Below, one piece after another: positions 20,651 to 33,019 of a stretch of DNA of 40,934 nt. Position 1 is the first letter of the stretch, and the number at the start of each line of letters is the position of its first letter. The translations under genes were made by a program, and so were the position numbers. The DNA is taken from the NCBI GenBank assembly GCA_030682715.1, contig JAUXNQ010000052.1, forward strand, positions 1 through 40,934, in the 5' to 3' direction. The notes beneath the pieces were generated by a model. The model was given only the letters and a program-made list of their open reading frames with translations, was not told where the DNA came from and searched no databases. This DNA is from Methylotenera sp. Lineage in GTDB: Bacteria; Pseudomonadota; Gammaproteobacteria; Burkholderiales; Methylophilaceae.

Positions 20651-22390
20651 TTGATACCTGAAAGTTTTATTCAAGAGTTGCTAAATCGCGTTGATATTGT
20701 CGATGTGATTGATAAAAGTGTGCCGCTAAAAAAAGCAGGCGCCAATTATTCTGCCTGCTGTCCGTTTCATAATGAAAAATCCCCCAGCTTTACAGTAAGT
20801 CCTACTAAACAGTTTTATCATTGTTTTGGCTGTGGCGCACACGGCACTTCAATTGGTTTTATGATGGAGTATCAAGGGCTTAGCTTTGTTGATGCGATTC
20901 ATGATTTAGCCAAAATGGTGGGGATGACCGTGCCGCAAGAGGTACGCGATAGCGACAAGCCAGCACCTAAAGTGGTTGTTGGCTTGCAAGATGCGTTACA
21001 AGAAGCGGCTAATTTTTATAAAGCGGAGCTAAAAAAATCACCGCGTGCTATTGAGTATTTAAAAGCGCGTGGACTAAGTGGCCAAGTCGCGGCTAAGTTT
21101 CAGGTGGGGTATGCGCCTGCTGGTTGGCAAAATCTACAAAGTGTTTTTCCGCATTATGAGAATGAGGCATTAACAGTAGCGGGTTTGGTGGTAGAGAACG
21201 AGCAAGGTCGTCGTTATGACCGATTCCGCGATCGCATCATGTTTCCTATTCATGATCAAAAAGGTCAGGTTATTGGCTTTGGTGGCCGTGTCATTAACCC
21301 AGAAGATACGCCTAAATATTACAACTCACCAGAAACACCATTGTTTCAAAAAGGGCATGAGTTGTATGGCTTGTTTTTGGCGCGCAGAGCCATCCGTGAT
21401 GCAGGCCGTGCCTTGGTGGTAGAAGGGTATATGGACGTAGTCGCATTGGCGCAATATGGCATTGAGTATGCGGTGGCTGCGCTAGGTACGGCAACAACGC
21501 CTTACCATATTACAAAGTTGATGCGCCAAGCGGATGAGATTGTATTTTGCTTTGATGGCGATAACGCGGGGCGTACTGCGGCATGGCGTGCGGCAATGAA
21601 TGCTTTACCTGCGCTAACTGATGGTTTGAAGCTATCATTTTTATTTCTTCCTAAAGAGCATGATCCAGACTCTTACGTACGTGAATTTGGTAAAGAAAGG
21701 TTTGAAGCTGAAATTAAATCGGCAATGCCGTTGTCTCAGTATATTCTGCAACATTTAAGTGAAAACAATGCCTTGCAAAGTCAGGAAGATCGCGTGCGAT
21801 TTCTAAATGAGGCTGAGCCTATCATGCAACAGATTGGCGCACCGCGCAGTGCAATGTATTTGCGCAAAAAGGTGGCTGAGTTGGCGCAATTATCACCAGA
21901 TGAAATGCAGGCGTTGTTAAAGTTGCCCAGTTTAAATAAAACGCGAGTACAGGCTAAGCCAAAATTGACACGTACAACAGTGTCCTTGCAAAAGCGCTTT
22001 GGTTTAATGTTGTTGATGCATCCAGCGCTGGCGCAGAAAGATGATTTAAGTTTATTAGATGAGCGGGATGATACGGATATTTTATTGCGGCAGGTGATTG
22101 AAATTTGCCTGATGCATCCCCATTCTAAGCCTGCGGTATTGTTGCGTGAGTTGGAAAAAAACATTGACGCAAGCGTTTTGCAAGAATTGCAGCGAGAGTT
22201 AACGTTGCTGGATGATACGCTTGATCAAGCGAAAGAGGTTGCAGGTGCTCGCCAGCAGTTGCAGGCAGTGCATACGCAACGCCAAGGTGCATCATTATTG
22301 GCACGAATCAGTGAAAAACCTTTGAGCGCTTTAACTGCTGATGAAATTGCGCTATTGAAATCTGTTGGTAGTAAACCCCAGCCAAAATAA
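20651..22390 (+). CDS. dnaG: DNA primase DnaG
   Basis: 579 residues from a TTG start at 20651 (MIPESFIQELLNRVDIVDVI matches the family N-terminus exactly; no better ATG exists). DnaG makes RNA primers at the fork. The CHC2 zinc finger has Cys37, His40, Cys58 and Cys61 (CPFH ... CFGC). The TOPRIM core carries VVEGYMDVVALAQYG and FCFDGDNAGRTAA. The C-terminal DnaB-interacting part (about 430-579) is divergent, as usual. The TTG start and the preceding terminator fit the low expression typical of primase. Confidence 0.97.
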   Translation: MIPESFIQELLNRVDIVDVIDKSVPLKKAGANYSACCPFHNEKSPSFTVSPTKQFYHCFGCGAHGTSIGFMMEYQGLSFVDAIHDLAKMVGMTVPQEVRDSDKPAPKVVVGLQDALQEAANFYKAELKKSPRAIEYLKARGLSGQVAAKFQVGYAPAGWQNLQSVFPHYENEALTVAGLVVENEQGRRYDRFRDRIMFPIHDQKGQVIGFGGRVINPEDTPKYYNSPETPLFQKGHELYGLFLARRAIRDAGRALVVEGYMDVVALAQYGIEYAVAALGTATTPYHITKLMRQADEIVFCFDGDNAGRTAAWRAAMNALPALTDGLKLSFLFLPKEHDPDSYVREFGKERFEAEIKSAMPLSQYILQHLSENNALQSQEDRVRFLNEAEPIMQQIGAPRSAMYLRKKVAELAQLSPDEMQALLKLPSLNKTRVQAKPKLTRTTVSLQKRFGLMLLMHPALAQKDDLSLLDERDDTDILLRQVIEICLMHPHSKPAVLLRELEKNIDASVLQELQRELTLLDDTLDQAKEVAGARQQLQAVHTQRQGASLLARISEKPLSALTADEIALLKSVGSKPQPK

Positions 22391-22400
22391 GGCTATATTC

Positions 22401-22409
22401 TGTTATAAT
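22401..22409 (+). promoter_or_regulatory. Extended -10 promoter candidate for rpoD
   Basis: TGTTATAAT is a consensus TATAAT preceded by a TGn extension, 75 bp upstream of the rpoD ATG in the dnaG-rpoD gap. No good -35 is seen at the expected distance, which is compatible with an extended -10 promoter giving rpoD its own start. Confidence 0.5.
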
Positions 22410-22483
22410 GCTCGGTTACGGTAATCTTATTTATCATGTGTGATGTATGCGTCATGGTAGAGCTAAAATTTTAGAGGTAAGAC

Positions 22484-24421
22484 ATGGCAAGACCAAAGAA
22501 AAGTGATCAACAAGCTGAAAAAAATGCAGAAAACTACGTTCGCCCAGAACTGCAAGAGGTCAGCGCTGAAGAGCGTCGCATTCGTCTTAAAAGCTTAATC
22601 GTATTAGGTAAGGAGCGCGGCTACCTGACTTATGCTGAGATTAACGATCACTTGCCTGATGACGTTCAAGGTTCTGAGCAGATTGATGGCATTATCGGCA
22701 TGATTAACGACATGGGTATTCAGGTGTATGAAGAAACACCAGATGCCGAAGCATTGTTAATGTCTGACGCACCTCCAGCCGTGACTGATGATGACGCTGT
22801 TGAAGAAGCTGAACAAGCACTTGCAACGGTAGACTCAGAGTTTGGCCGTACTACCGACCCAGTGCGTATGTATATGCGCGAAATGGGTACCGTTGATTTG
22901 CTCACACGCGAAAGCGAAATTGAGATTGCACGCCGTATTGAAGATGGTCTAAAGCATATGGTACAAGCGATTGCTGCTTGTCCTACTACGATTGCCGCTT
23001 TGTTGGAAATGGTAGATAAAGTTGAGCGCGATGAGTTAAGCGTAGATGATTTAGTCGATGGTTTAATCGATGCTGATATCGGTTTAGACGATGCGATGAC
23101 GGAAGAAACGCCAGAAGAAGAAGAGCCTGAGGCTGATGAAGAAGAAGATGACGGCGATGAAGATGGTGCAAAAGCCGCTGCTATCTCTGCCGAAGCATTA
23201 GCTAAGCTTAAAGAAGAGCTACTCAAACGTTTTGAAGTAGTGCGTGCAGCACACCAAAAAATGACAGTGATTTTGCCAGTTAAAGGTTCGCAAGACCCTG
23301 AGTATCTAGCATTGTTGTCTGAAATCCTTCTTGAATTAACAGCATTCCGTTTTTCACCGAAGCAAGTTGAAAGCCTATGCGATCAAGTGCGTGGCTTAGT
23401 AGAAACTGTACGTGGACATGAGCGTAAAGTGCTGGACTTCTGTGTTGAAAAAGCAGGTATGCCACGTCCGTACTTTATTAAATCGTTTCCAGGGAATGAA
23501 AGTAATTTAGCTTGGTTAGAAGAAGAGCTTAAAGCTGACAAACCATACAATGAAAAATTGGCGCGCTTTAATCACTCAATTTTAGACCAACAGCAACGTA
23601 TTATTGATTTAGAAACTAAAGTTGGTATTTCAGCGAAAGAGCTAAAAGAAATCAATAAACAAATGACCACCGGCGAGGCACGTGCACGCCGTGCTAAGCG
23701 TGAAATGATTGAAGCAAACTTACGTTTGGTGATTTCTATCGCTAAGAAATATACAAACCGTGGTTTACAGTTCTTGGACTTGATTCAAGAAGGTAATATT
23801 GGCTTGATGAAAGCGGTTGATAAATTTGAATACCGTCGCGGTTTTAAATTCTCAACTTATGCAACGTGGTGGATCCGCCAGGCCATTACTCGTAGTATTG
23901 CCGACCAAGCACGTACTATCCGTATTCCTGTACACATGATTGAAACGATTAATAAAATGAATCGTATCAGTCGCCAAATTCTGCAAGAAACTGGTGTTGA
24001 GCCAGACCCAGCATTGCTAGCTGAGAAAATGGAAATGCCTGAAGACAAGATTCGTAAAATCTTGAAAATCAGTAAAGAACCAATTTCAATGGAAACGCCA
24101 ATTGGCGATGATGAAGATTCTCACTTAGGTGACTTTATTGAAGACAGTACGACATTGGCACCAGTGGATGCCGCTGTTTATGCAAGCTTACGCGATGCAA
24201 CAAGTGAAGTGCTAGAATCATTAACACCGCGTGAAGCAAAAGTATTACGTATGCGCTTTGGTATTGAAATGAACACAGACCATACGCTAGAAGAAGTAGG
24301 TAAGCAATTTGATGTAACGCGTGAGCGTATTAGACAAATTGAAGCGAAGGCGCTACGCAAGTTGCGCCATCCAACTCGTTCAGAAAGATTAAGAAGCTTC
24401 TTAGAAACTGGACAAGATTAG
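22484..24421 (+). CDS. rpoD: RNA polymerase primary sigma factor RpoD (sigma-70)
   Basis: 645 residues. Region 1.1 is at the start, then region 1.2 ([19 protein letters not shown]). The non-conserved region includes a very acidic stretch (about 205-230, [18 protein letters not shown]). Regions 2.1-2.4 follow ([60 protein letters not shown]), then region 3 ([14 protein letters not shown]), and region 4 ending in the HTH of 4.2 ([20 protein letters not shown]). Ribosome-binding site AGAGGTAAG before the ATG. Last gene of the rpsU-dnaG-rpoD cluster. Confidence 0.98.
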
Positions 24422-24438
24422 TTTAAAATAACGACTTC

Positions 24439-24465
24439 AAAAGTTTAGGCCCCTTAGCTCATGCT
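24439..24465 (+). repeat. Partial copy of the tRNA-Ile 5' end
   Basis: AAAAGTTTAGGCCCC and the following TTAGCTCATGCT repeat, with one missing A, the leader and first 17 bases of the split tRNA-Ile at 24615-24640. The copy then diverges (CTTCTGAAG), so it cannot be a functional tRNA. The matching 5' leader shows that the duplication extended upstream of the gene. Confidence 0.85.
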
Positions 24466-24623
24466 CTTCTGAAGTGTCTTCTCGGTTTTCAGATAGGTTT
24501 CATGTGCTTAGGTACATAAAGAAGTAAAAAGTAATTTGAAATACTGAAACATCATTAATTTTTTAGTTTCAGAAAAGAATAATTGTGGGTAAATGTTATA
24601 AAATGCCCACGATAAAAGTTTAA

Positions 24624-24916
24624 GGCCCCTTAGCTCATGCTTGGTTAGAGCAGCGGACTCATATGTAAATGTGCCATATACGTGGAAACTGTATATGGGA
24701 TGGTGTCAAATTCGGTGAAACCTGACGGCAGTGATGCACAAGGCAATGCCGAGCGAAGCTTCAAATAGAAATGTTTGTTGAACGTGTAGAGACTAGACGG
24801 CACCCACCTAAAGCAATCGTAATGGTTGTTATGGTGAAGGCATAGTCCAGGGAGGCGGGAAACCGTCACAAACCAGAATCCGTTGGTACTGTGTTCGACT
24901 CACAGAGGGGCCACCA
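24624..24916 (+). tRNA. ileX: tRNA-Ile(CAU) interrupted by a group I intron
   Basis: Exon 1 is 24624-24662 and exon 2 is 24877-24916. Joined, they give a 79-nt tRNA with CCA encoded: acceptor GGCCCCT/AGGGGCC, D arm GCTC/GAGC, anticodon arm GCGGA/TCCGT with loop CTCATAA (anticodon CAT), and T arm CTGTG/CACAG. Acceptor and arms match the minor isoleucine tRNA whose CAU anticodon is modified to lysidine by TilS, not elongator or initiator tRNA-Met. The 214-nt insertion sits directly after the anticodon, so splicing is needed for function. A hairpin terminator follows. Confidence 0.93.
24663..24876 (+). ncRNA. Group I self-splicing intron (Azoarcus tRNA-Ile type)
   Basis: 214 nt, no ORF. The internal guide GTG (24671-24673) can pair with the exon end CAT, giving the U-G wobble at the 5' splice site, and the intron ends in G at 24876. 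Helices seen: P2 CCATATAC/GTATATGG closed by a GAAA loop; P3 GGTGTC (24702-24707) with GGCACC (24799-24804); P4 TTCGG/CCGAG; P6 TTCAA/TTGAA; P7 GACTA (24791-24795) with TAGTC (24843-24847); P8 CACC/GGTG; P9 GGCGG-GAAA-CCGTC. Segments such as ATGGTGTCAAATTCGG, GTAGAGACTAGACGGCACCC and GTGAAGGCATAGTCCAGGGA agree with the well-known Azoarcus intron (about 205 nt) in the same tRNA at the same place. Confidence 0.95.
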
Positions 24917-24923
24917 ATTAAAG

Positions 24924-24959
24924 ACGACTTAGGGAGAGATCTCTGGGTCGTATTTTGTT
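24924..24959 (+). terminator. Terminator after tRNA-Ile
   Basis: ACGACTTAGGG pairs with CTCTGGGTCGT (with G-T wobbles) around AGAGAT, followed by ATTTTGTTT. It starts 8 bp after the CCA end. Confidence 0.7.
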
Positions 24960-25093
24960 TCTAATGTCGCCATTTGACATCTTTTCTTGTTTATTACTTT
25001 TTAAAATATTAAATTAAAACATTGCTCTTCTGAATCCGCTGATTAGCTTTAGCAGTTGTGGCACATTTCGATACTTAACTGATTGAATCATCA

Positions 25094-25570
25094 CTAGTTT
25101 GATAACGAATTTTTAACTGAAATGCGCTTTATGGTGGGTTTAGACTTCCATTTTACACGCCAGCTAATCATACCTAAGCCTGCCAGCAACAAGGCATATG
25201 CCTCTGGCTCAGGCACAGCAATCATGGTGCCTATTGCCACTGCGCATTGTGGGCAATCATCCTGTGAAAACATGCCCGGGTCCAGCGGGTCATTCAGCCT
25301 TAAATATCCTCTTTCCCTGTACTCTAGACCAGAGTAGGTTCCAGGCGTACTTAAATCAAATGGCGAGATAATGTCGTCAATATTATTCGCGCTAACAGAA
25401 AAGTAAAACTCCCGATCTAGCACATTGCCTATGTAGAACATCTTGCTGAATTCCACGTAAGTTTGAGTGCTAGGCGCGTAATGGTAAAAGGTTGTTGCGG
25501 CATCATAAAGCGTGCATTTGTATAGAGATGAAGATAAATTTTTACAAAGACTTAAACGATTAAGTGCGCA
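25094..25570 (-). pseudogene. 5'-truncated PEP-CTERM protein gene
   Basis: The C-terminus has a clear PEP-CTERM sorting signal: VPEPEAYALLLAGLG, a short hydrophobic stretch ending in a WRVKWKSK basic tail. These signals direct proteins to exosortase and are usually found with exopolysaccharide systems. The open frame extends back from the GTG at 25456 to a stop at 25571-25573 (CALNRLSLCK, then TTFYHYAPSTQTYVEFSKMF), but that stretch contains no ATG, GTG or TTG start and no signal peptide, which a PEP-CTERM protein requires. The gene has therefore lost its 5' end. No exosortase gene is in the window. Confidence 0.65.
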
Positions 25571-25650
25571 TTAACTCTTTAAACTTACCGTTTAAGCCGA
25601 ATGTGTAATAAATACCTGTTATTAATATCTCAAAGCCATGAATACCAATA

Positions 25651-25842
25651 CTAGAGGCGAATAGGAGGTAGGTAGCCACCAGGAATAATGCCAAAAACAG
25701 ATAGCACGATAAGAATCAGTAAGACGATGAATAGTACACGTACGATTTGTGCAACAGGCGCTGGCAAAGGTAGCATGCTAATTAGCCACCATATGAGTCC
25801 AAAAACGACCAAATAGACGATGAGATTGATGATTAAGTTCAT
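25651..25842 (-). CDS. Small hydrophobic membrane protein (Thivi_2564-like)
   Basis: 63 residues from the ATG at 25842, chosen because GGAGG lies 6 bases upstream; the frame is open further up but without such a site. Two membrane helices: about 4-25 (NLIIVYLVV-like, FGLIWWLISML) and about 34-54 (VRVLFIVLLILIVLSVFGI), separated by PLPAPVAQI, and a short PGGYLPPIRL tail. The architecture matches small Thivi_2564-family membrane proteins of unknown function common in proteobacteria. Monocistronic by context. Confidence 0.75.
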   Translation of the reverse strand: MNLIINLIVYLVVFGLIWWLISMLPLPAPVAQIVRVLFIVLLILIVLSVFGIIPGGYLPPIRL

Positions 25843-26078
25843 TATTCCTCCAAATGTTAAAAATAGATGCATGCGACATGCATTAAGCAATTGCGTTTGC
25901 AATCTACACGCAACGCCCAAATCTATTAACGATTATCAAAAATAATATATTGCACTTCTGAGCGATATTTTAATGTGGCTTACATCACATATGCGTTTAT
26001 GAATTAGCTAAAAATCTTGAATTTACCTAAAAATAGCCGTTTACTTCAATAAATATCTCTCCCTCTTGGTTTAGTAAA
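25843..26078. other. Gene-free stretch left of the insertion sequence
   Basis: About 240 bp upstream of the small membrane protein gene and left of the insertion sequence. It must hold that gene's promoter, but no clear -35/-10 pair stands out. The sequence is AT-rich with short AAAAAT-type runs. Nothing else is recognised. Confidence 0.4.
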
Positions 26079-26089
26079 GATTGAATTGC

Positions 26090-27431
26090 ACTAGTGTCCG
26101 GTTAAATTTCGAATAAATTCAATTGGTTATCAGATGGCGACATAATGACTCTATTGGGATTTGGCTGCAAGGCTTATGAAATAAGGGTTTTCTCAAAAAC
26201 AGAGACCGATAAAATCTGTAATTAAAGTGTAGAGCGAGGCATTGAGATGAAGCTCCTTTTTAACAATGGCAATGAGCACATAGGTGGACACTGCGCACCA
26301 GATTTGCGTCTTCACAGCATTTTCGCTGGTGCCTAAAAAACGCTTGATACGCAGGTGTTGCTTGATTCACTTGAAGAACAACTCCACTTGCCAGCGGCTC
26401 TTCTACAGCGCGGCAATAGTCAATGGCGGGAAGCTTGTATTGTTGGTTAGAAACACCAGCGTTTTGCCTGACTCTGGGTCTTTGTAACGGATGCGCCGCA
26501 AATGCTCGGGATAGTCTCGGCTCACGTAATATCCGCTGAGTCGAATCGACTGATCGCAGACCACTCCTGTAGTTCGGTCGGTCTTGACTGAATATACGCG
26601 CCGAGCGTTCATCCCGTGTTTGGCTGGTAACAAAGAAAGCCCCAGCTTGATGTAGCTTGAATAGCCTGCCGAAGTCCAGATAACCCCGATCCATCACGTA
26701 AAAAGCCCCCGCTACGACGGGCAAGATGTCGAGCACTTTGACGTCGGCCATTTCGCCTAGAGGCGCCTACTTTTGGTGCCATCGCTAATGTAAATAAAGG
26801 CTGGAATCGCCCCACGCGAATCCAGTAGCGTGTGCATACCGCCGCTTTGGTTGAACGAAACGGCGCCCAGTCGAACAGGCTCAAGCACAGGTCGATAGTG
26901 GTTGAATCCAGCGCTTAAACCGTTGCATCGAGCTCCAGGCCTGTCGGTTCTTTGGTGTAGAGGTTTCGGGCTCGTACGGTCAGGCGCATGGCCAGTGCGT
27001 GGTAGATGCGCCAATCGCGCTGATTCTGTGTGTCTGAGAGTGTGGCTCTGGCCAGTACACCGCTCAATCCCATATGAAATAGCTTGGTTTGGTTGGCCGC
27101 TAGGCAGGACTCGATGTCGCGTAAAGATTCGCGCCATGTCAATTGCGAGAAAGCCATTACGCGAAACAAATTGGCGCAGTCCAATGCGCGCACCCCTGCA
27201 TCGCCACCGTGACGGTCGATAATACGTCCAAACGTCTTCCACGGTACGTACTCCATGACTTGTGTAAACAGCGTTTTGCCCACGTTCATGTTTCACTCCA
27301 GGTTCATTAAACCTAAAAGTATCGCAAATGTTTGCTCTGGAATTCAAATTGTGGACACCATTTAATCGTTCATAACCCTTATCAATTATTAACTTTGCAG
27401 CTGGCATGACTCAATTTAACTGGACACTAGT
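26090..27431. mobile_element. Degenerate IS4-family insertion sequence, 1342 bp
   Basis: The ends are inverted repeats: ACTAGTGTCCGGTTAAATT at the left and AATTTAACTGGACACTAGT at the right, with one mismatch. They are flanked by an 11-bp target duplication differing at one base: GATTGAATTGC (26079-26089) and GATTTAATTGC (27432-27442). The interior is a decayed transposase on the minus strand. The GC content is higher than that of the surrounding genes. Both ends and the target duplication remain readable, so the insertion was a simple single event. Confidence 0.88.
26102..27289 (-). pseudogene. Frameshifted IS4-type transposase with DUF4372 N-terminus
   Basis: From the ATG at 27289 the product starts MNVGKTLFTQVMEYVPWKTF and continues with LTWRESLRDIESCLAANQTK to ELDATV, the DUF4372-type N-terminus of IS4-family transposases. 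Family-like segments then continue in other frames: GGMHTLLDSRGAIPAFIYIS, VAGAFYVMDRGYLDFGRLF, AGAFFVT, KHGMNARRVYSVKTDRTTG, SRDYPEHLRRIRYKDPESGK, QVELFF and LGTSENAVKTQIW. At least four frame changes and one nonsense codon near the end (IS-stop-ALQP) are present. The ancestral gene would encode about 390 residues. It cannot make an active transposase. Confidence 0.88.
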
Positions 27432-27442
27432 GATTTAATTGC

Positions 27443-27665
27443 TTTAATTAAGTACTAAATCAACTGTAATTGACATTGTCTGGTGAGATTGAATTGCTTG
27501 TTTTCAATCAATAAAAATAAATCATCTTTTCTGTGAGATACCCCACATATATTTTTGATTAACCTCAATACAATCAGCGCATATTTAATCCAAGTTTAAT
27601 GCTTGGTTCAATTTACCAAGTTCAATTCACTAAGTTCAATTAAATAAAACCATTGAGGTAGCTTC
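27443..27665. other. Gene-free stretch right of the insertion sequence
   Basis: About 220 AT-rich bp with direct repeats of the type TTCAATTNAC/CAAGTTCAATT (27605-27645). It presumably contained the promoter of the autotransporter-like pseudogene that follows. No gene or RNA is recognised. Confidence 0.4.
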
Positions 27666-28385
27666 ATGAGAATGAAAATAATAGTAATAGCTGTCGCTGC
27701 TAGTTTAGTCACTTGGGCTCCTCCAACGCTAGCGCGTCAAGATGTTGAACTGCCATATATTTTTGGCGTTGCACCTGATGATAGTGTATGGCAAGCTACT
27801 GGTATTGATACTACGGTTGGTGCATTGCTGACAATTAACTCTGATATCAATATCTTTCCTAGCGTTAACCGTAAACCGAGTGCTGATTACAGTGGTCGCC
27901 AATATACTGGGTTGGTTGCAGTGGATAAGCTTTTTATGTTAACGAAACGGTCATTACACCTCTGGCTTCGTTACAGGCATCACGAATTAGCGTAGATCGT
28001 TACAATGAAAAAGGTGGTGGCGATGCAAATCTGCGTGTAGGTAGCCAAGACTATGACTTTGTGCAATCTAGCTTGGGTGTAAAAGCGGAGCGTATGATAC
28101 GCGACTACTGCTATACTGTCTCCAGAGGTGCATGCAAGATGGTTACATGATTTCAACTCAACAACTATGGATCAGAACGTTGCGTTTGCAGGCGGTGGAT
28201 TTGTCTTTAATGTGCAAGGGGTTAAGCAAGACTGGGATTTATATAATGTAGGTGCAGGATTTACTACGTCATATTGTAATTGTGAAGGTAATGCTTGGTC
28301 AGTTAAAGGCCTATACGATTGCTGATGGAACAATAGTGATTACTCATCAAATCAAGTATATTTGATCGCAAATTTAAAGTTTTAA
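27666..28385 (+). pseudogene. Frameshifted autotransporter beta-domain gene
   Basis: An intact signal peptide (MRMKIIVIAVAASLVTWA, ending TLA) begins the gene. Family matches to the autotransporter beta-barrel then run over three frames: ADYSGRQYTGLVAVDK in frame 1; NETVITPLASLQASRISVD, GSQDYDFVQSSLGVKAER after a shift near 27945; VHARWLHDFNSTTMDQNVAF, YNVGAGFTTSYCNC and the terminal strand NQVYLIANLKF after a shift near 28120. A stop (YDC-stop) also interrupts the last part. The passenger domain is almost absent, so it is both truncated and frameshifted. The original product would have been an outer-membrane autotransporter. Confidence 0.75.
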
Positions 28386-28414
28386 ACACATAGCATCACT
28401 GGTTTAGATATTTG

Positions 28415-28447
28415 ACAAACCCTCCATTTTTTAAATGGGGGGTTTGT
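28415..28447. terminator. Long hairpin after the autotransporter remnant
   Basis: ACAAACCCTCCATTT pairs with AAATGGGGGGTTTGT (15 bp with one G-T wobble and a 3-nt loop). It lies 30 bp past the end of the remnant and 80 bp before the Crp/Fnr gene. There is no T-run, so it is terminator-like rather than a textbook terminator. Confidence 0.6.
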
Positions 28448-28527
28448 GCGTATGTGGCTCCAGTATGTAGTACCGTAAGGCGTTGTCCTAGCCTTATTCA
28501 CATTAGCAATTAATAGAGATTTTCCGT

Positions 28528-29256
28528 ATGACTAAGCAATTACAAGACCCTCGCCAGAATCTAATACTCGCATCTTTACCTGCAGATGATTACGAGCGCA
28601 TACTGCCCGATTTGGAGCGTATTGAGATGCCAGTTGGTGCTGTTATTTCAGAAGCTGGTGACCATGTGAAATATTTATACTTTCCAACTAGTGGCATTGT
28701 TTCCCTGATGTATAGCTTAGAGAACGGCTCCTCTAGCGAGATTGCAATTGTAGGTAATGAGGGCATGATAGGCATTTCTATCTACATGGGCGGTGAAAGT
28801 ATGCCTAGTAGTACCGAAGTACAGTCAGAGGTTAAAGCCTACCGACTTAGCCGTAAAGTGATGAAGCGTGAGTTTGCTTTAGGTGGTAAGTTACAACTAA
28901 TTTCTTTGCTATACACACAAGCGCTCATTGCTCAAACATCTCAAACAGCCGTTTGTAATCAGCACCATGCACTTGATCAACAACTTTGTCGTTGGTTACT
29001 TATGAGCATCGATCGGCTACATGATGAAAAGTTGATCATCACACAAGGAATGATTGCAAAACTATTGGGTGTGACTCGGGAAAGTGTGAATATTTGTGCA
29101 AGTGGTTTGCAAAAAGATGGTTTGATTAGTTATACACGTGGACAGATTGTTGTGCTCAATCGCGCTGGGCTAGAAAAGCGCGTATGCGAATGTTATGTAG
29201 CAGTCGTTAAAGAATATGAACGATTATTGCCTAGCATCAAAAAGTCCAAATCATAA
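28528..29256 (+). CDS. Crp/Fnr family transcriptional regulator
   Basis: 242 residues. The N-terminal cupin-like sensor domain (about 15-125) contains ILPDLERIEMPVGAVISEAG, YLYFPTSGIVSLMYSLENG and VGNEGMIGISIYMGG. A long dimerisation helix follows, and a C-terminal winged helix (about 150-225) with TQGMIAKLLGVTRESVN as the recognition helix. The Arg and Ser that hold cAMP phosphate in CRP are not evident, and Fnr-type clustered cysteines are absent, so the ligand is unknown. It is intact in an otherwise decaying region. Its targets cannot be told from the neighbours. Confidence 0.9.
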   Translation: MTKQLQDPRQNLILASLPADDYERILPDLERIEMPVGAVISEAGDHVKYLYFPTSGIVSLMYSLENGSSSEIAIVGNEGMIGISIYMGGESMPSSTEVQSEVKAYRLSRKVMKREFALGGKLQLISLLYTQALIAQTSQTAVCNQHHALDQQLCRWLLMSIDRLHDEKLIITQGMIAKLLGVTRESVNICASGLQKDGLISYTRGQIVVLNRAGLEKRVCECYVAVVKEYERLLPSIKKSKS

Positions 29257-29460
29257 ATTCATTTAACGTAGCATTCAGTAATCCTGGCTTGCATGCTGTA
29301 AGCAGTTGAATCATCATGGGGTGTTTCTTAAAAATATCTTACCTATACAATTACTAGATAGCTATTATTTTGCAGGTGCCAAGCGCTAATAAGCGCTATA
29401 GATTGAACCTCTGTTTCTGAAAGCTGACATACACCAGTTAATTCTTATACCGAGTGAGCA

Positions 29461-29622
29461 ATGAAGCGGTCTCGGATGCTGATGATAATAAACTCAAGAT
29501 TGGAATACGAAGCGACTAAGCTCACACTCAAACGTGCCATAAACGAGCTACCTTTGCCTAAAGAGGTATCTATGCAAAATGGAATGCTGCATCATCCATT
29601 AGCTGCTCATGATTATCAATAG
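29461..29622 (+). CDS. Possible small ORF, 53 residues
   Basis: ATG to TAG, beginning MKRSRMLMIINSRLEYEATK and ending HHPLAAHDYQ. It is basic, with a helical look in the middle (TLKRAINELPLPKE). No strong ribosome-binding site: GAGTGAGCA precedes the ATG. No family is recognised. It could be a relic rather than a gene. Confidence 0.25.
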   Translation: MKRSRMLMIINSRLEYEATKLTLKRAINELPLPKEVSMQNGMLHHPLAAHDYQ

Positions 29623-29642
29623 GCGGCTTATGCGCTAAGGCG

Positions 29643-29783
29643 ATGCGCCTAACTTTGCATGTAGATGTTTGCAAAATGCGTGTGGGTAATTTTTCACAGC
29701 ATCAGTGGGCAAGTTTCGAGCTTGTGTTATATTGCCTTGATGGTGAGTTGAGTGCCTACAAAATAATAGCAGTCTTAATGTAA
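29643..29783 (+). CDS. Possible small ORF, 46 residues
   Basis: ATG to TAA, beginning MRLTLHVDVCKMRVGNFSQH and ending GELSAYKIIAVLM. The composition is protein-like (FELVLYCLDGE), and a hairpin with a T-run follows about 50 bp later, which would suit a short transcript. The ribosome-binding site is weak (AAGGCG). Family not recognised. Confidence 0.35.
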   Translation: MRLTLHVDVCKMRVGNFSQHQWASFELVLYCLDGELSAYKIIAVLM

Positions 29784-29834
29784 CTTGCTAGGTAAAGTAT
29801 TGTTAATGACGATGTTGACCTGTTTGAGGTCTTG

Positions 29835-29859
29835 GCTACTGCAAAGTAGCTATTTTTTT
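29835..29859 (+). terminator. Small terminator hairpin
   Basis: GCTACT-GCAA-AGTAGC, a 6-bp stem with a 4-nt loop, is followed by TATTTTTTT. It lies just before the ATG of the Cys-rich small protein at 29873, so it ends an upstream transcript or attenuates that gene. Confidence 0.6.
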
Positions 29860-29872
29860 ATGTTTAAAGCCT

Positions 29873-30082
29873 ATGGTTAATCAATCTAATCAGTTCGATA
29901 TCAATCAACTCGACGCTAAGCAGTGCTTAAAATGTGCACATTATTTTATTACCTATGAACCGAGTTTCCCTTATGGTTGCCGAGGGTTGAACTTTAGAAG
30001 TAGGCGACTTCCGTGTAATGACGTTTTTGAGGCGTCTGGCACAAACTGCCTGATGTTTGTAAGAAAACCAGTTGTGCCATAG
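29873..30082 (+). CDS. Small Cys-rich (probable metal-binding) conserved-looking protein
   Basis: 69 residues. Four cysteines, at CLKC (CxxC), YGCR and TNC, are arranged around aromatic and basic motifs (HYFITYEPSFPYGCRG, FRSRRLPCNDVF, SGTNCLMF), with a fifth in LPC. This suggests a small zinc-binding or iron-binding module. I do not recognise a named family with confidence. No function is proposed. It precedes the frameshifted HD-GYP gene by 30 bp, so the two may have been co-transcribed. Confidence 0.6.
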   Translation: MVNQSNQFDINQLDAKQCLKCAHYFITYEPSFPYGCRGLNFRSRRLPCNDVFEASGTNCLMFVRKPVVP

Positions 30083-30111
30083 TTCTGACAGACCAATAAT
30101 ACCAATAAAAT

Positions 30112-31237
30112 ATGAAGAAAAATCAAATACTTGATGTAACAAGGCATGGCGATACTTTGAATGAACGTTTGAGACATTTGCATGAAAGAATGCTGGAGTC
30201 TGTGCCTGTGGTAGATCGTATTGGATGTGCGATTTATGATGCAAAAGAAGATATGTTGAAAACTTTTGTGAATAGTACTAGGCAAGGCGTGCCGATTTCA
30301 GGCTATGAAATTAAGTAGCTGATAGCTTGTCCCTATCCGATATAGCGCTGAGCGGAAAGCCTCGCGTCATTGATTCTATTCGAGAATCAATCAAGCCGAG
30401 TAATCAGCATTCAACTTGGCTACTGGAGCAGGGTTATCAATCTTCGTTTACCATTCCAATGTATGACCAAGGCGTGCTTTTAGGTTTCTTATTTTTTTGA
30501 CTCGATAGCACATGCAGCGTTTACCCCTCAAACGCAGCGCGATTTATTATTGTTTTCTAGTTTGATTGATATGACGTTATCCACTGAAATGACGGCATTA
30601 CGTACAGTAGTTGCCTCTGTTGAAATGGCGAAAGAGCTGACAAATCTGAGAGATTTAGAGACTGGCGCGCATATCGAAAGAATGGCACGTTACTCGAGAG
30701 TCATTGCAAAGGGAATGGCAAGTAAGATTGGCTTGATCGACGAGTTTGTTGAACATGTTTATTTGTTTGCGCCACTGCATGATATTGGCAAGATAGGTAT
30801 TCCTGACAAAATACTATTAAAAGAAGGCAGACTAGACCCTGATGAGAAAAAAATCATGCAAACGCATGTGAAAAAAGGCATTGAGATTATTGAAAAAATC
30901 CTAGGGGACTTTAATTTACAGCAACTGGCTAAATCTAAGGTGATGCGTAATGTTGTGGCGTTTCATCACGAGTTGATGGATGACTCAGGCTACCGTAAAG
31001 GAATCAAAGGTGAAGCTATCCCAATTGAGGGTAGAGTTGTTACGATGGGAGATGTGCTAGACGCATTGGTGAGTAGTTGGCCATATAAAAGTAGGCTGGT
31101 CTTTAGATGATGCATTTGCCGAGTTAACGCGTATGGTAGACATTGGCAAACTAGATGCAGATTGTGTTGATGTCGTATTAGAACAACGTTCAGAAATACA
31201 AGAGATTGTGAATAATTATCAGGATATACATCATTAG
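30112..31237 (+). pseudogene. Frameshifted GAF-like/HD-GYP phosphodiesterase gene
   Basis: Four segments in different frames reconstruct one protein of about 370 residues. It starts MKKNQILDVTRHGDTLNERL and reaches GYEIK at a stop near 30316; continues as LSLSDIALSGKPRVIDSI to VLLGFLF; then, after a 7-T run near 30493, DSIAHAAFTPQTQRD into the HD-GYP domain (ETGAHIERMARYSRVIAKGM, LFAPLHDIGKIGIPDKILLK, NVVAFHHELMDDSGY); and after an extra A near 31090, VGWSLDDAFAELTRM to the end. HD-GYP enzymes hydrolyse cyclic di-GMP. Here GYP reads GYR. The indels lie at or near homopolymer runs, so true decay or assembly error are both possible. Confidence 0.8.
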
Positions 31238-31498
31238 AAGATGTTTGCTGATGACTAGGTATTGGGTATATTTGTGTTGTAATAAGCTATTAGGTGTTTT
31301 TGTTGATGCTTGTGATAAGTGAGTTGATGCACACGTTAGGGTGATTGCAAAACTATCTTGCCATGCGGATACTAGTATGCAGGTGCTGTAAGATTAAACG
31401 TAGTATTGAATGTGCACCTTTTATTTTTCAAAGAGGTGCATACATCGTGTTTTCAACCTGTCACAAACATAGTCTTAATGTTGATTTTTTAGCGGGAT
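31238..31498. other. 260-bp intergenic stretch before the diguanylate cyclase
   Basis: No gene. A short inverted repeat TGCACCT/AGGTGCA lies at about 31413-31435, without a T-run. It may bound the upstream transcript or be a regulator site. No cyclic-di-GMP riboswitch architecture was recognised. Confidence 0.4.
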
Positions 31499-33019
31499 AT
31501 GATGAACGCTAAGCTAAATTCTATTAAACCAATTTCAACCCTGACTATTTTTATAGCACTAGTGGTGTGGATATCACTTTGCTTGATGGTGCTGTGGACG
31601 GTCGTCAATCTCAATCTCCGCGATGCTGAAAGAAACTTCACTGAACATGGTGAGGACTATGTAGATAAGCTCAATAGAAGTATGGTGAGTAGCGAAACTG
31701 TTCTAAAAGGCTTTTCTGCACTGTTTGCTGCGATTGGAAATACTGATCCTGAAAAAGTATCGGTGTATGTCAAAAGTGTAATCGACAGCAATGATCAGAT
31801 TTTTGCGCTAGAAGTCATACAGAAGGTACCCAAACAACAGCTTGAAGATTTTATTACAAGCAAACGGCTTAGTGGAGATCCAAACTTCACGGTTAAATCT
31901 TTCTCTTTTGATCACAGTCGCGGATGGAAGGCCCTGCAAGATAAGCCGATATATTATCCTATCATTTCTATGGAACCCCCCTCTGCAAATTCAGAAGAAA
32001 TTTTAGGATTGGATGTTTCCAGTGTTCCTTTTTTAGAAACAGCAATATTGCAAGCAATAAGTCTTAAAAGTCCAGTGGCGAGCCATCCGTTCCGATTAAT
32101 TGAAGGAAATCTTGCCTATGTAGTGGTATGCCCGATAAAGTCAGAAGAGAATATGATTATTGATGCAGACAAGCTACAGAGGCCTAATGCTAATCTGTTG
32201 CGGGATGGTTTTAGTGCAGTTGTTTATCATAAAGACTTTACGCCCCAAGAACATAAAGGTCAGCTATTCGCAGTGTCTGGACGTGGCAGGAGTGCCATTG
32301 AAGAAGCAATTTTCCCAGTGTTTAGCCTACAAAAAACATTGGCAACCATGGGAGAGGCCTTCTCTCTCTTAATGACTAGACAAGCTGGTTGGACTGACTT
32401 GAGTTTAAAGCTGATAGCATTAATAGCATCATTATCGTTTGTATCTTCGGCGATTTTGTATATTTATTTGCGCTCAGTTCAACGGGGACGACTTGAACAT
32501 ATCAACCATCAAAATCTTTTATGGAAACTTGCTAACCAAGATACGTTAACTGGAATTCCTAATCGAATGCTAATGTTAGATCGGCTCGAGCAAGCGTTAG
32601 CAATCAGTGATCGAAGTGGTCATTATGGAGCCGTGATTTTTTTAGATATTGATAATTTCAAAGCGCTTAATGATACTAAAGGGCATGATGCTGGAGATTT
32701 ACTTTTAATAGATATCGCCAAGAGAATTAACCTCTCTCTTCGTAATGTAGATACGGTGGCGCGCTTAGGTGGCGATGAGTTTATCGTTATTTTAAGTGAA
32801 CTAGGGACGGAGTTCGCCGAATCAAATGCTAGCGCCACTCAGGTTGCTGATAAAATTCGCATGATGGTAGAGCAACCTTATAAGCTTCAATTGTTTGATT
32901 ATCAAATAACGGTGAGCATCGGTATAACGTTGTTTAAAGGTAATGAAAAAACCATTAATCAACTGCTAAAATCGGCCGATGCAGCCATGTACAAGCAAAA
33001 GGCAATGCATCACCATTGA
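31499..33019 (+). CDS. CHASE-GGDEF diguanylate cyclase
   Basis: 506 residues (two adjacent ATGs at 31499 and 31502). An N-terminal membrane helix lies at about 14-36. A periplasmic CHASE sensor domain (about 60-270) includes IQKVPKQQLEDF, PIYYPIISMEPP and YVVVCPIK. A second helix lies at about 300-323. The cytoplasmic GGDEF domain contains LANQDTLTGIPNRMLMLDRL and RLGGDEFIVIL (active motif at about 424-428). The product-inhibition I-site RNVD sits exactly five residues before GGDEF, so the enzyme is predicted to be active and feedback-inhibited. It synthesises cyclic di-GMP in response to an extracytoplasmic signal of unknown nature. It follows an HD-GYP relic, i.e. the opposite activity. Confidence 0.93.
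   Translation: MMNAKLNSIKPISTLTIFIALVVWISLCLMVLWTVVNLNLRDAERNFTEHGEDYVDKLNRSMVSSETVLKGFSALFAAIGNTDPEKVSVYVKSVIDSNDQIFALEVIQKVPKQQLEDFITSKRLSGDPNFTVKSFSFDHSRGWKALQDKPIYYPIISMEPPSANSEEILGLDVSSVPFLETAILQAISLKSPVASHPFRLIEGNLAYVVVCPIKSEENMIIDADKLQRPNANLLRDGFSAVVYHKDFTPQEHKGQLFAVSGRGRSAIEEAIFPVFSLQKTLATMGEAFSLLMTRQAGWTDLSLKLIALIASLSFVSSAILYIYLRSVQRGRLEHINHQNLLWKLANQDTLTGIPNRMLMLDRLEQALAISDRSGHYGAVIFLDIDNFKALNDTKGHDAGDLLLIDIAKRINLSLRNVDTVARLGGDEFIVILSELGTEFAESNASATQVADKIRMMVEQPYKLQLFDYQITVSIGITLFKGNEKTINQLLKSADAAMYKQKAMHHH

Follow-up and report, generated by a model that had tools for sequence, protein, structure and literature searches.

In the window analysed here, a whole stretch of 40,934 nucleotides from Methylotenera sp., a tRNA-Ile(CAU) gene interrupted by a group I intron is probably the replacement gene of a tRNA-dependent island that broke the native tRNA, and the intron may shield the replacement at the crossover core. 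On sequence grounds, the case is assembled from the intron itself, the broken native gene, a recurrent element, horizontal acquisition and the coincidence of the intron site with the core. As we envisage it, a tyrosine integrase would join the attP site of the island with the CTCATAA loop of the native tRNA-Ile(CAU) gene behind rpoD, and the native gene would be split and not rebuilt. The island would supply its own complete tRNA-Ile(CAU), some 130-220 nt inside its left end, and this copy would serve the cell once the intron had spliced itself out. With the intron inside CTCAT^AA the integrase would no longer cut the replacement gene: because the core is interrupted, the gene would cease to be an attB site whilst its RNA product stays normal.

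That a group I intron interrupts the tRNA-Ile(CAU) gene at 24624-24916 had been predicted from the letters of the window, and the observation is confirmed. The exons 24624-24662 and 24877-24916 join into a tRNA-Ile(CAU) with a CCA end, with the intron directly after the anticodon, and the Rfam model RF00028 matches 24650-24869 with 48.0 bits (E 4.9e-11 in a search of 801 nt, the curated cut-off being 50). A default Rfam scan of the whole window lists nothing because this score falls 2 bits under the cut-off, and ARAGORN finds no tRNA in the window. The intron, at 24663-24876, has the 214 nt originally claimed and is ORF-less as described, in that no ORF of at least 100 aa lies within it; the GTG guide, the exon-terminal U-G pair, the terminal G and the GAAA loops in both L2 and L9 are likewise present by reading, and the host is indeed a methylotroph of the Methylotenera type. 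We take the letters of the intron to agree with those of the Azoarcus intron and the P2/P5/P6/L8-type extensions to differ in sequence, and the Azoarcus intron site is presumably also directly after the anticodon.

The structure was assessed over 60 distinct pre-tRNA rows, with P5 left out. P1 is paired in 99% of cases, P2 in 94%, P6a in 92% and P9 in 100%, and changes on both sides occur in 2/5, 6/8, 6/6 and 4/5 of their pairs, respectively. The predicted core helices P3 and P7 are also there, 100% paired and invariant across the 60 rows, and so themselves yield no covariation. When partners were slid by 1-3 columns as a control, pairing was mostly 5-60%, with maxima of 83% (P3) and 72% (P6a). 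The intron helices are kept by compensatory change and the intron is under pairing constraint; splicing in the cell is putative. Around the intron tRNA, a consensus promoter scan returned no promoter, and TATAAAAT was read by eye at 24597-24604, within the left end and spacer. Coordinates are collected in Table 1.

Table 1. Features of the window at the intron-bearing tRNA gene and its surroundings.
Feature	Position	Strand	Basis
rpoD (sigma-70), native neighbour of tRNA-Ile(CAU)	22484..24421	+	Pfam sigma-70 domains
18-nt stump of native tRNA-Ile(CAU) 5' end	24448..24465	+	100% match to tRNA 5' end
Putative island remnant, about 5.0 kb, right edge approximate	24466..29476	.	no insert in G069 or G117
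Element left end and spacer 5' of replacement tRNA	24466..24623	+	85-88% identical to L041, L043, L045 left ends
5' exon of replacement tRNA-Ile(CAU), last bases the anticodon CAU	24624..24662	+	exon reading
P1: CAUAU/AUGUG, GUAA loop, exon-terminal U paired with G	24660..24673	+	286/289 cells paired
Group I intron, 214 nt, positions 36/37 (CTCAT^AA)	24663..24876	+	RF00028 48.0 bits; covariation, 60 rows
P3, 24702-24707/24799-24804	24702..24804	+	360/360 cells paired
P7, 24791-24795/24843-24847	24791..24847	+	300/300 cells paired
P9, GAAA loop	24854..24867	+	300/300 cells paired; 4/5 pairs changed on both sides
3' exon with CCA	24877..24916	+	exon reading
Terminator-like hairpin and T run 3' of tRNA	24924..24951	+	1 in 581-nt stretch against 0.1 expected (shuffles)
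Passenger ORF with PEP-CTERM motif, inside remnant	25094..25456	-	Pfam E 1.1e-5
Passenger Crp/FNR-type regulator, inside remnant	28528..29256	+	Pfam

The DNA at 22001-24465 is found in the same order in the close relative G069, at 91.6% identity. Both G069 and G117 hold an intact, intronless tRNA-Ile at the site with no insert, and are 91.5-91.6% identical to the window from 22 kb to 24465. Alignment of the backbone breaks off at 24465 and is taken up again at 29477 (G069) or 29474 (G117), so that the insert in the window measures about 5.0 kb. Other Methylophilaceae keep the full native 5' half at this position, up to and including CTCATAA, with foreign sequence behind it. From the attL of the window, 32 nt have gone, the core among them, in a deletion between two ATGCT repeats (24465/24466) that was deduced by eye from the left junctions of two related loci (L041 and L045); no CTCATAA remains on the + strand in 24000-31500, and neither integrase nor attR remains in the window. 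With the attL core and the native 3' half gone, the island would be locked in, and the window may be regarded as the decayed left end of an integrative island. The stump and the insert absent from G069 and G117 depart from the Azoarcus type of arrangement, in which a native gene stands behind rpoD with no second piece of tRNA. Neither the stump nor the element, nor the coincidence of intron site with crossover site, figures in the original prediction.

Related loci fill in what the window lacks. There, CTCATAA in the anticodon loop marks the cut in the native gene, and what follows is the left end of an element that carries a complete intron tRNA and, in several cases, a tyrosine integrase, and that ends with CTCATAA and the native 3' half. 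Left-end sequences past CTCATAA vary by lineage (TCCGATGCTC, TCTATTCAA, GAAAGAAGCCC, TTCTTCTGCATC, ATCTTTACTG, CTCTCTGCC), and the border was therefore set by recombination. A complete element of 32.6 kb lies in G194 on contig C1, with the native half at 1336133, the intron match at 1335692-1335892, the integrase at 1333166-1334503, and the right end with the native 3' half at 1303546. In G151 (Polynucleobacter sp. MWH-HuK1), a tandem array of 60 kb runs from the native half at 769997 to the native 3' half at 830070 and holds two intron tRNAs and one full-length 450-aa integrase gene, and in G154 an island of 21 kb, bounded by both native halves, lacks any member of this integrase family (about 450 aa). 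Judged from protein starts and lengths only, the cargo looks catabolic in G154 and metal-related in G151.

The right-end pattern CTGCTCTCATAA, sought in 15 element-bearing genomes, matched 24 times in eight of these, seven Polynucleobacter and a beta-proteobacterial MAG; the reversed control matched once. Twenty-two of the 24 are element ends and 2 look like chance; seven ends are joined to the tRNA-Ile 3' half (2 degenerate), seven to a left end with intron tRNA, and eight to a left end of a different type, without any intron motif within 1.5 kb. In G150, G158, G162 and G164, too, CTCATAA links a right end with the 3' half, and direct repeats (e.g. GCTTACACACCGCTTACACAC) stand beside the core. 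Standard islands with a rebuilt tRNA do not describe these loci, as the 25 left junctions with a native half leave the tRNA soon after CTCATAA. The features of tRNA-dependent integration are found in the relatives instead: an element-borne tyrosine integrase gene (missing in the window remnant and in the G154 island), a core of 7 nt (CTCATAA) in a tRNA that is not rebuilt, halves at both ends in G151, G154 and G194, and a tRNA of the same isotype coded by the element. The sequences of these loci thus show a recurrent element with attL, attR and, in several cases, an integrase.

The integrase beside the intron tRNA belongs to a family of about 450 aa (L066, L069, L070, L100, which is cut, L112 and the G151 array) that matches the PHROG 1 integrase at E 1e-28 to 1e-33. 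Pfam PF00589 matched only one of four members at E up to 10, and a profile of the family had no match to solved structures at E 0.01. Residues R233, K283, R377 and Y410 (numbering of L070) are invariant in 4/4 aligned members, and by analogy we take these to be the catalytic residues. At E 1e-30 the family occurs in 14 of 150 genomes of the Methylophilaceae sample and was not found in the window's own genome (G000) or in G007, G022, G059, G077, G106 or G140, the last six being the relatives whose left end is most similar to that of the window. Two other genes were considered as the enzyme of the element and rejected. A different integrase stands directly behind the CCA of the intron tRNA at L043:4085-5359 (424 aa, in G007) and at L106:2-463 (cut); since the former lies behind the CCA end and homology to other loci stops there, its probable source is a separate island in the tRNA 3' end. 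The other gene, XerD-like and close to the locus, has its equivalents next to rpoD in related genomes and was regarded as a housekeeping neighbour. Relatives of the integrase adjoin tRNA-Phe and tRNA-Lys genes that are cut or rebuilt at the anticodon loop. Four stand beside broken tRNA halves (L137, L138 and L157 at tRNA-Phe, L141 at tRNA-Lys CTT), with no replacement tRNA in the few hundred bases before the integrase gene.

The 7-nt crossover CTCATAA is interrupted by the intron as CTCAT^AA, so that intron site and core coincide. A search led by the integrase through 399 genomes of the order found 13 with a member at E 1e-60, and showed that replacement tRNAs differ from plain attB in more than one way. 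In G205 and G420, whose elements have an integrase of the same family, the replacement tRNA-Ile is interrupted at CT^CATAA by an unlike group I intron (30.3 bits and E 8.7e-6 against the group I model in a 701-nt search, below the cut-off), which stands between positions 33/34 of tRNA-Ile(CAU) (loci L236, L238 and L239-L255); ARAGORN misreads two copies of this second type as an intron-bearing tRNA-Leu(taa). The element of G194 has the intron type of the window. The replacements in the elements of G344 and G403 have no intron and are altered in the anticodon stem that flanks the CTCATAA loop; ARAGORN labels them, like the intron tRNA of G194, Met(cat), and the isotype of the two intronless replacements is therefore not certain. 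All five complete replacement copies beside this integrase in that search thus differ from plain attB at loop or stem, a count from which G058 (C76, C105) was left out, C105 having only the last 16 nt of the tRNA. G232 shows the usual 3'-half repair of the tRNA instead, and the remaining integrase members lie at other tRNAs or at no readable tRNA. In G205, a second left end interrupts the core of one plain element copy, and the 80 kb read contain a single tRNA-Ile 3' half; a second element is likely nested in that copy. At L217 of G232, the 5' end of the tRNA and a flanking segment are tandemly repeated several times upstream of an intact tRNA-Ile.

Introns are thus present in three of five replacements beside the integrase, whereas of the 394 other genomes among the 399 sampled, 25 have either intron (Fisher p 0.0028, a rough value from small numbers that ignores kinship). 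That two unlike introns and a changed stem fall at the same loop suggests convergence, which would support shielding, and the intron may have been kept because it protects the replacement tRNA from the integrase. It is worth noting, however, that bacterial group I introns in tRNA genes usually adjoin the anticodon, according to the available part of PMC4033280, which makes the coincidence of intron and core weaker than it looks; that the intronless replacements of G344 and G403 mean that an intron is not needed for this way of life; and that the counts are small and the genomes related.

Understanding how far the intron travels with such islands requires contexts beyond the window. Besides the window's own, 11 of 150 family genomes hold a full or near-full match to the intron tRNA with flanks, and further genomes of this sample have fragments only, many at contig ends; a second copy also lies in the assembly of the window, on contig C52 (96% identity). 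Behind it (L041, 9888-13863) are genes for a cytosine-5 DNA methylase, an AAA protein and a McrBC-like protein, possibly defence cargo. The original prediction had asked whether the intron was inherited vertically or transferred. Identity of the intron is 98.1% in G007, 96.2% in G106 and 95.7% in G022, all of other genera, against 78-80% for alignments from rpoD through the tRNA in the same genomes, and drops to about 79% in additional genomes. Taken with the intronless, insert-free site of G069 and G117, this answers the question for the second option: the sequences show horizontal acquisition here, together with an integrative island.

An exact scan with a 23-nt core of the intron found 57 stretches in named genomes, mostly titled beta-proteobacteria (including Methylotenera, Polynucleobacter, Pseudoduganella, Massilia, Duganella, Gulbenkiania, Limnobacter, Azonexus and Propionivibrio, with one alpha- and one gamma-proteobacterial MAG outside them), and 9 in viral contigs. 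Plasmid and phage records gave little: 5 of 72,556 plasmid records matched, by short or weak hits that all fell below 80% query coverage, and 4 of 50,697 phage records, at 8% coverage. Sorted by script, 62 distinct intron pre-tRNAs comprise 26 behind a native 5' half (25 and the deleted form of the window), 9 behind a junction of two elements, 11 in the native place behind rpoD, 7 viral, 7 without assigned context and 2 cut by contig ends; as this set started from intron matches, it is silent on how often elements lack an intron. In the wider sample of 399, the window's intron occurs in 10 other genomes (4 element-borne with the half present, 3 native behind rpoD, 3 without assigned context), and the second intron in 17; in 10 of these it stands behind rpoD and no half is present, in 2 it is element-borne and in 4 no rpoD is seen, with one (L244) not parsed and L247 read by eye. 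A tree of 61 rows (L126 being left out for its 3' end) interleaves native and element copies, so that both capture from hosts and settling into hosts probably occurred. At L052/L085 of G088, an intron tRNA in the native place behind rpoD falls inside a clade of element-borne copies and could be left over from recombination between a native half and an element copy.

These distributions bear on whether the intron does anything for the island. One possibility, which we hold to be somewhat doubtful, is that the element needs any complete tRNA-Ile(CAU) and that the intron, old in the source host, has no role. Native copies behind rpoD without an element are common for both introns (11/62 and 10/17), so the intron could be a neutral passenger from such hosts; the interleaving in the tree is of a kind with this, as is the L075 element copy, whose tRNA body is unlike the half of its host. 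The frequency of introns beside the integrase, small as the sample is and with kinship ignored, points the other way, as do the changed stems in both intronless replacements and the plain element copy that was itself broken at its core. Introns in native tRNA-Ile genes might instead immunise the host against islands, elements having acquired them later. An idea of this kind is published for archaeal tRNA introns (the available text of PMC3293823), and in several families native genes have the same 7 nt interrupted, by one or other of two unlike introns; the islands themselves carry the intron, however, and the direction is not fixed, since deletion between direct repeats could make an element copy look native (L052/L085 is a possible case), all of which leaves a host defence rather unlikely. 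A wider reading of the shielded replacement stands at about even chances: self-splicing introns would serve as armour of the element, with two introns and a stem change arising convergently, so that the replacement tRNA is invisible to its own and sister integrases whilst the RNA stays intact. Elements would thereby spread ORF-less introns without a homing enzyme, and these would settle in native tRNA genes (the Azoarcus type) once the repeated half was lost.

The joined tRNA-Ile was searched in 21 element-bearing genomes, and among the matches listed none spanned the whole gene at tRNA-Ile identity in any of the 21, the best being gene halves. Eighteen longer or odd matches were read: 13 are other tRNAs (Met, Lys, Arg, Asn and, in G155, tRNA-Ile(TAT)), 4 are 3' halves at right ends and 1, at a contig edge in G155, could be an intact tRNA-Ile copy; the tRNA-Ile(TAT) of that genome could read AUA. 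In the assembly of the window, contig C67 does hold an intact tRNA-Ile(CAU), 100% identical to the joined exons. The original prediction would have been undone by such a second gene with the intron copy silent; the gene formally exists, but its rpoD tail is 85.5% identical to that of the window over 76 nt and the first 213 nt of C67 are 100% identical to G107, so C67 is probably a foreign contig. That the tRNA on C67 serves the cell and the intron copy is silent is accordingly improbable, the more so given relatives without an intact copy among the matches listed (except possibly G155) and an intron under pairing constraint; the cell would then depend on the intron copy. Least probable by far is that the 18-nt stump is a chance or slippage duplicate without any mobile element, for although in the window alone the duplication covers just 18 nt of tRNA (with flank, 27 nt that are 89% alike) and both integrase and attR are lacking, the complete half and this left end persist in its relatives, integrase and right end persist in other genera, and G069 and G117 have an empty site, on which a simple tRNA duplication was rejected. 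G107 (L228 and L229) has an additional 3' half, preceded by CTCATAA, on a different contig from its intact tRNA-Ile, as though a tRNA-rebuilding element had used the same site.

Published systems, as far as the available excerpts of the following papers go, share parts of this arrangement. The Azoarcus pre-tRNA-Ile intron (PMC4033280, PMC3984707) is a small group I intron in the same tRNA, described by Tanner and Cech 1996 (cited in PMC4033280) and given as IC3 in a reference title within PMC3984707; in contrast, the intron of the window is carried by an integrative element in a replacement tRNA beside the broken native gene. The nearest known system is the tRNA-dependent lysogeny of actinophages (Guerrero-Bustamante and Hatfull 2024, PMC10865867), which shares a tyrosine integrase, a short core in a host tRNA, a tRNA that is not rebuilt and an element that supplies the isotype, with tRNA-Lys and tRNA-Ile2-CAT as targets. 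It differs in that the present elements are beta-proteobacterial islands whose replacement tRNA is altered at the core, by a predicted self-splicing intron or by a changed stem; the only mention of the word intron in that paper is in the reference list, and its excerpt leaves prevalence beyond actinophages open. For tRNA-Thr of Caldiarchaeum, an intron is proposed to have come in with an integrating element and to prevent further integration (Sugahara 2012, PMC3293823), but this is an archaeal intron at one locus, whereas here two kinds of bacterial group I introns occur in elements with both ends. Islander genomic islands (PMC4383910) share the tRNA site, the tyrosine integrase and a displaced target fragment at the far end; standard islands of this type restore the tRNA, as in G232, whereas the present elements bring a whole one. 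In Methylophilaceae, the same family, flexible islands or tycheposons are reported at tRNA-Lys(ctt) and a tRNA annotated met(cat) (PMC10872708), in a text from which the terms intron, rpoD and Ile are absent.

Among the matches listed in the open-licence literature, judged by title and the start of the abstract, none describes a group I intron in an element-borne replacement tRNA. Integration of the tRNA-dependent kind is known from actinophages; here a ribozyme stands inside the tRNA. A heavily studied ribozyme family thereby gains a possible selected role, tRNA-dependent integration is extended from actinophages to beta-proteobacterial islands, a route is suggested by which introns without a homing endonuclease may move between genera, and the archaeal proposal that tRNA introns block integration obtains a bacterial system for testing at the bench. 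The same type of intron is also seen in viruses: a 2014 review, in its available part, places all phage introns observed until then in protein genes (PMC3984707), and the nine stretches from viral contigs (L118-L126) have it in tRNA genes with a CAT anticodon, on contigs with PHROG matches that include a terminase large subunit (L118) and a UvsX-like recombinase (L126).
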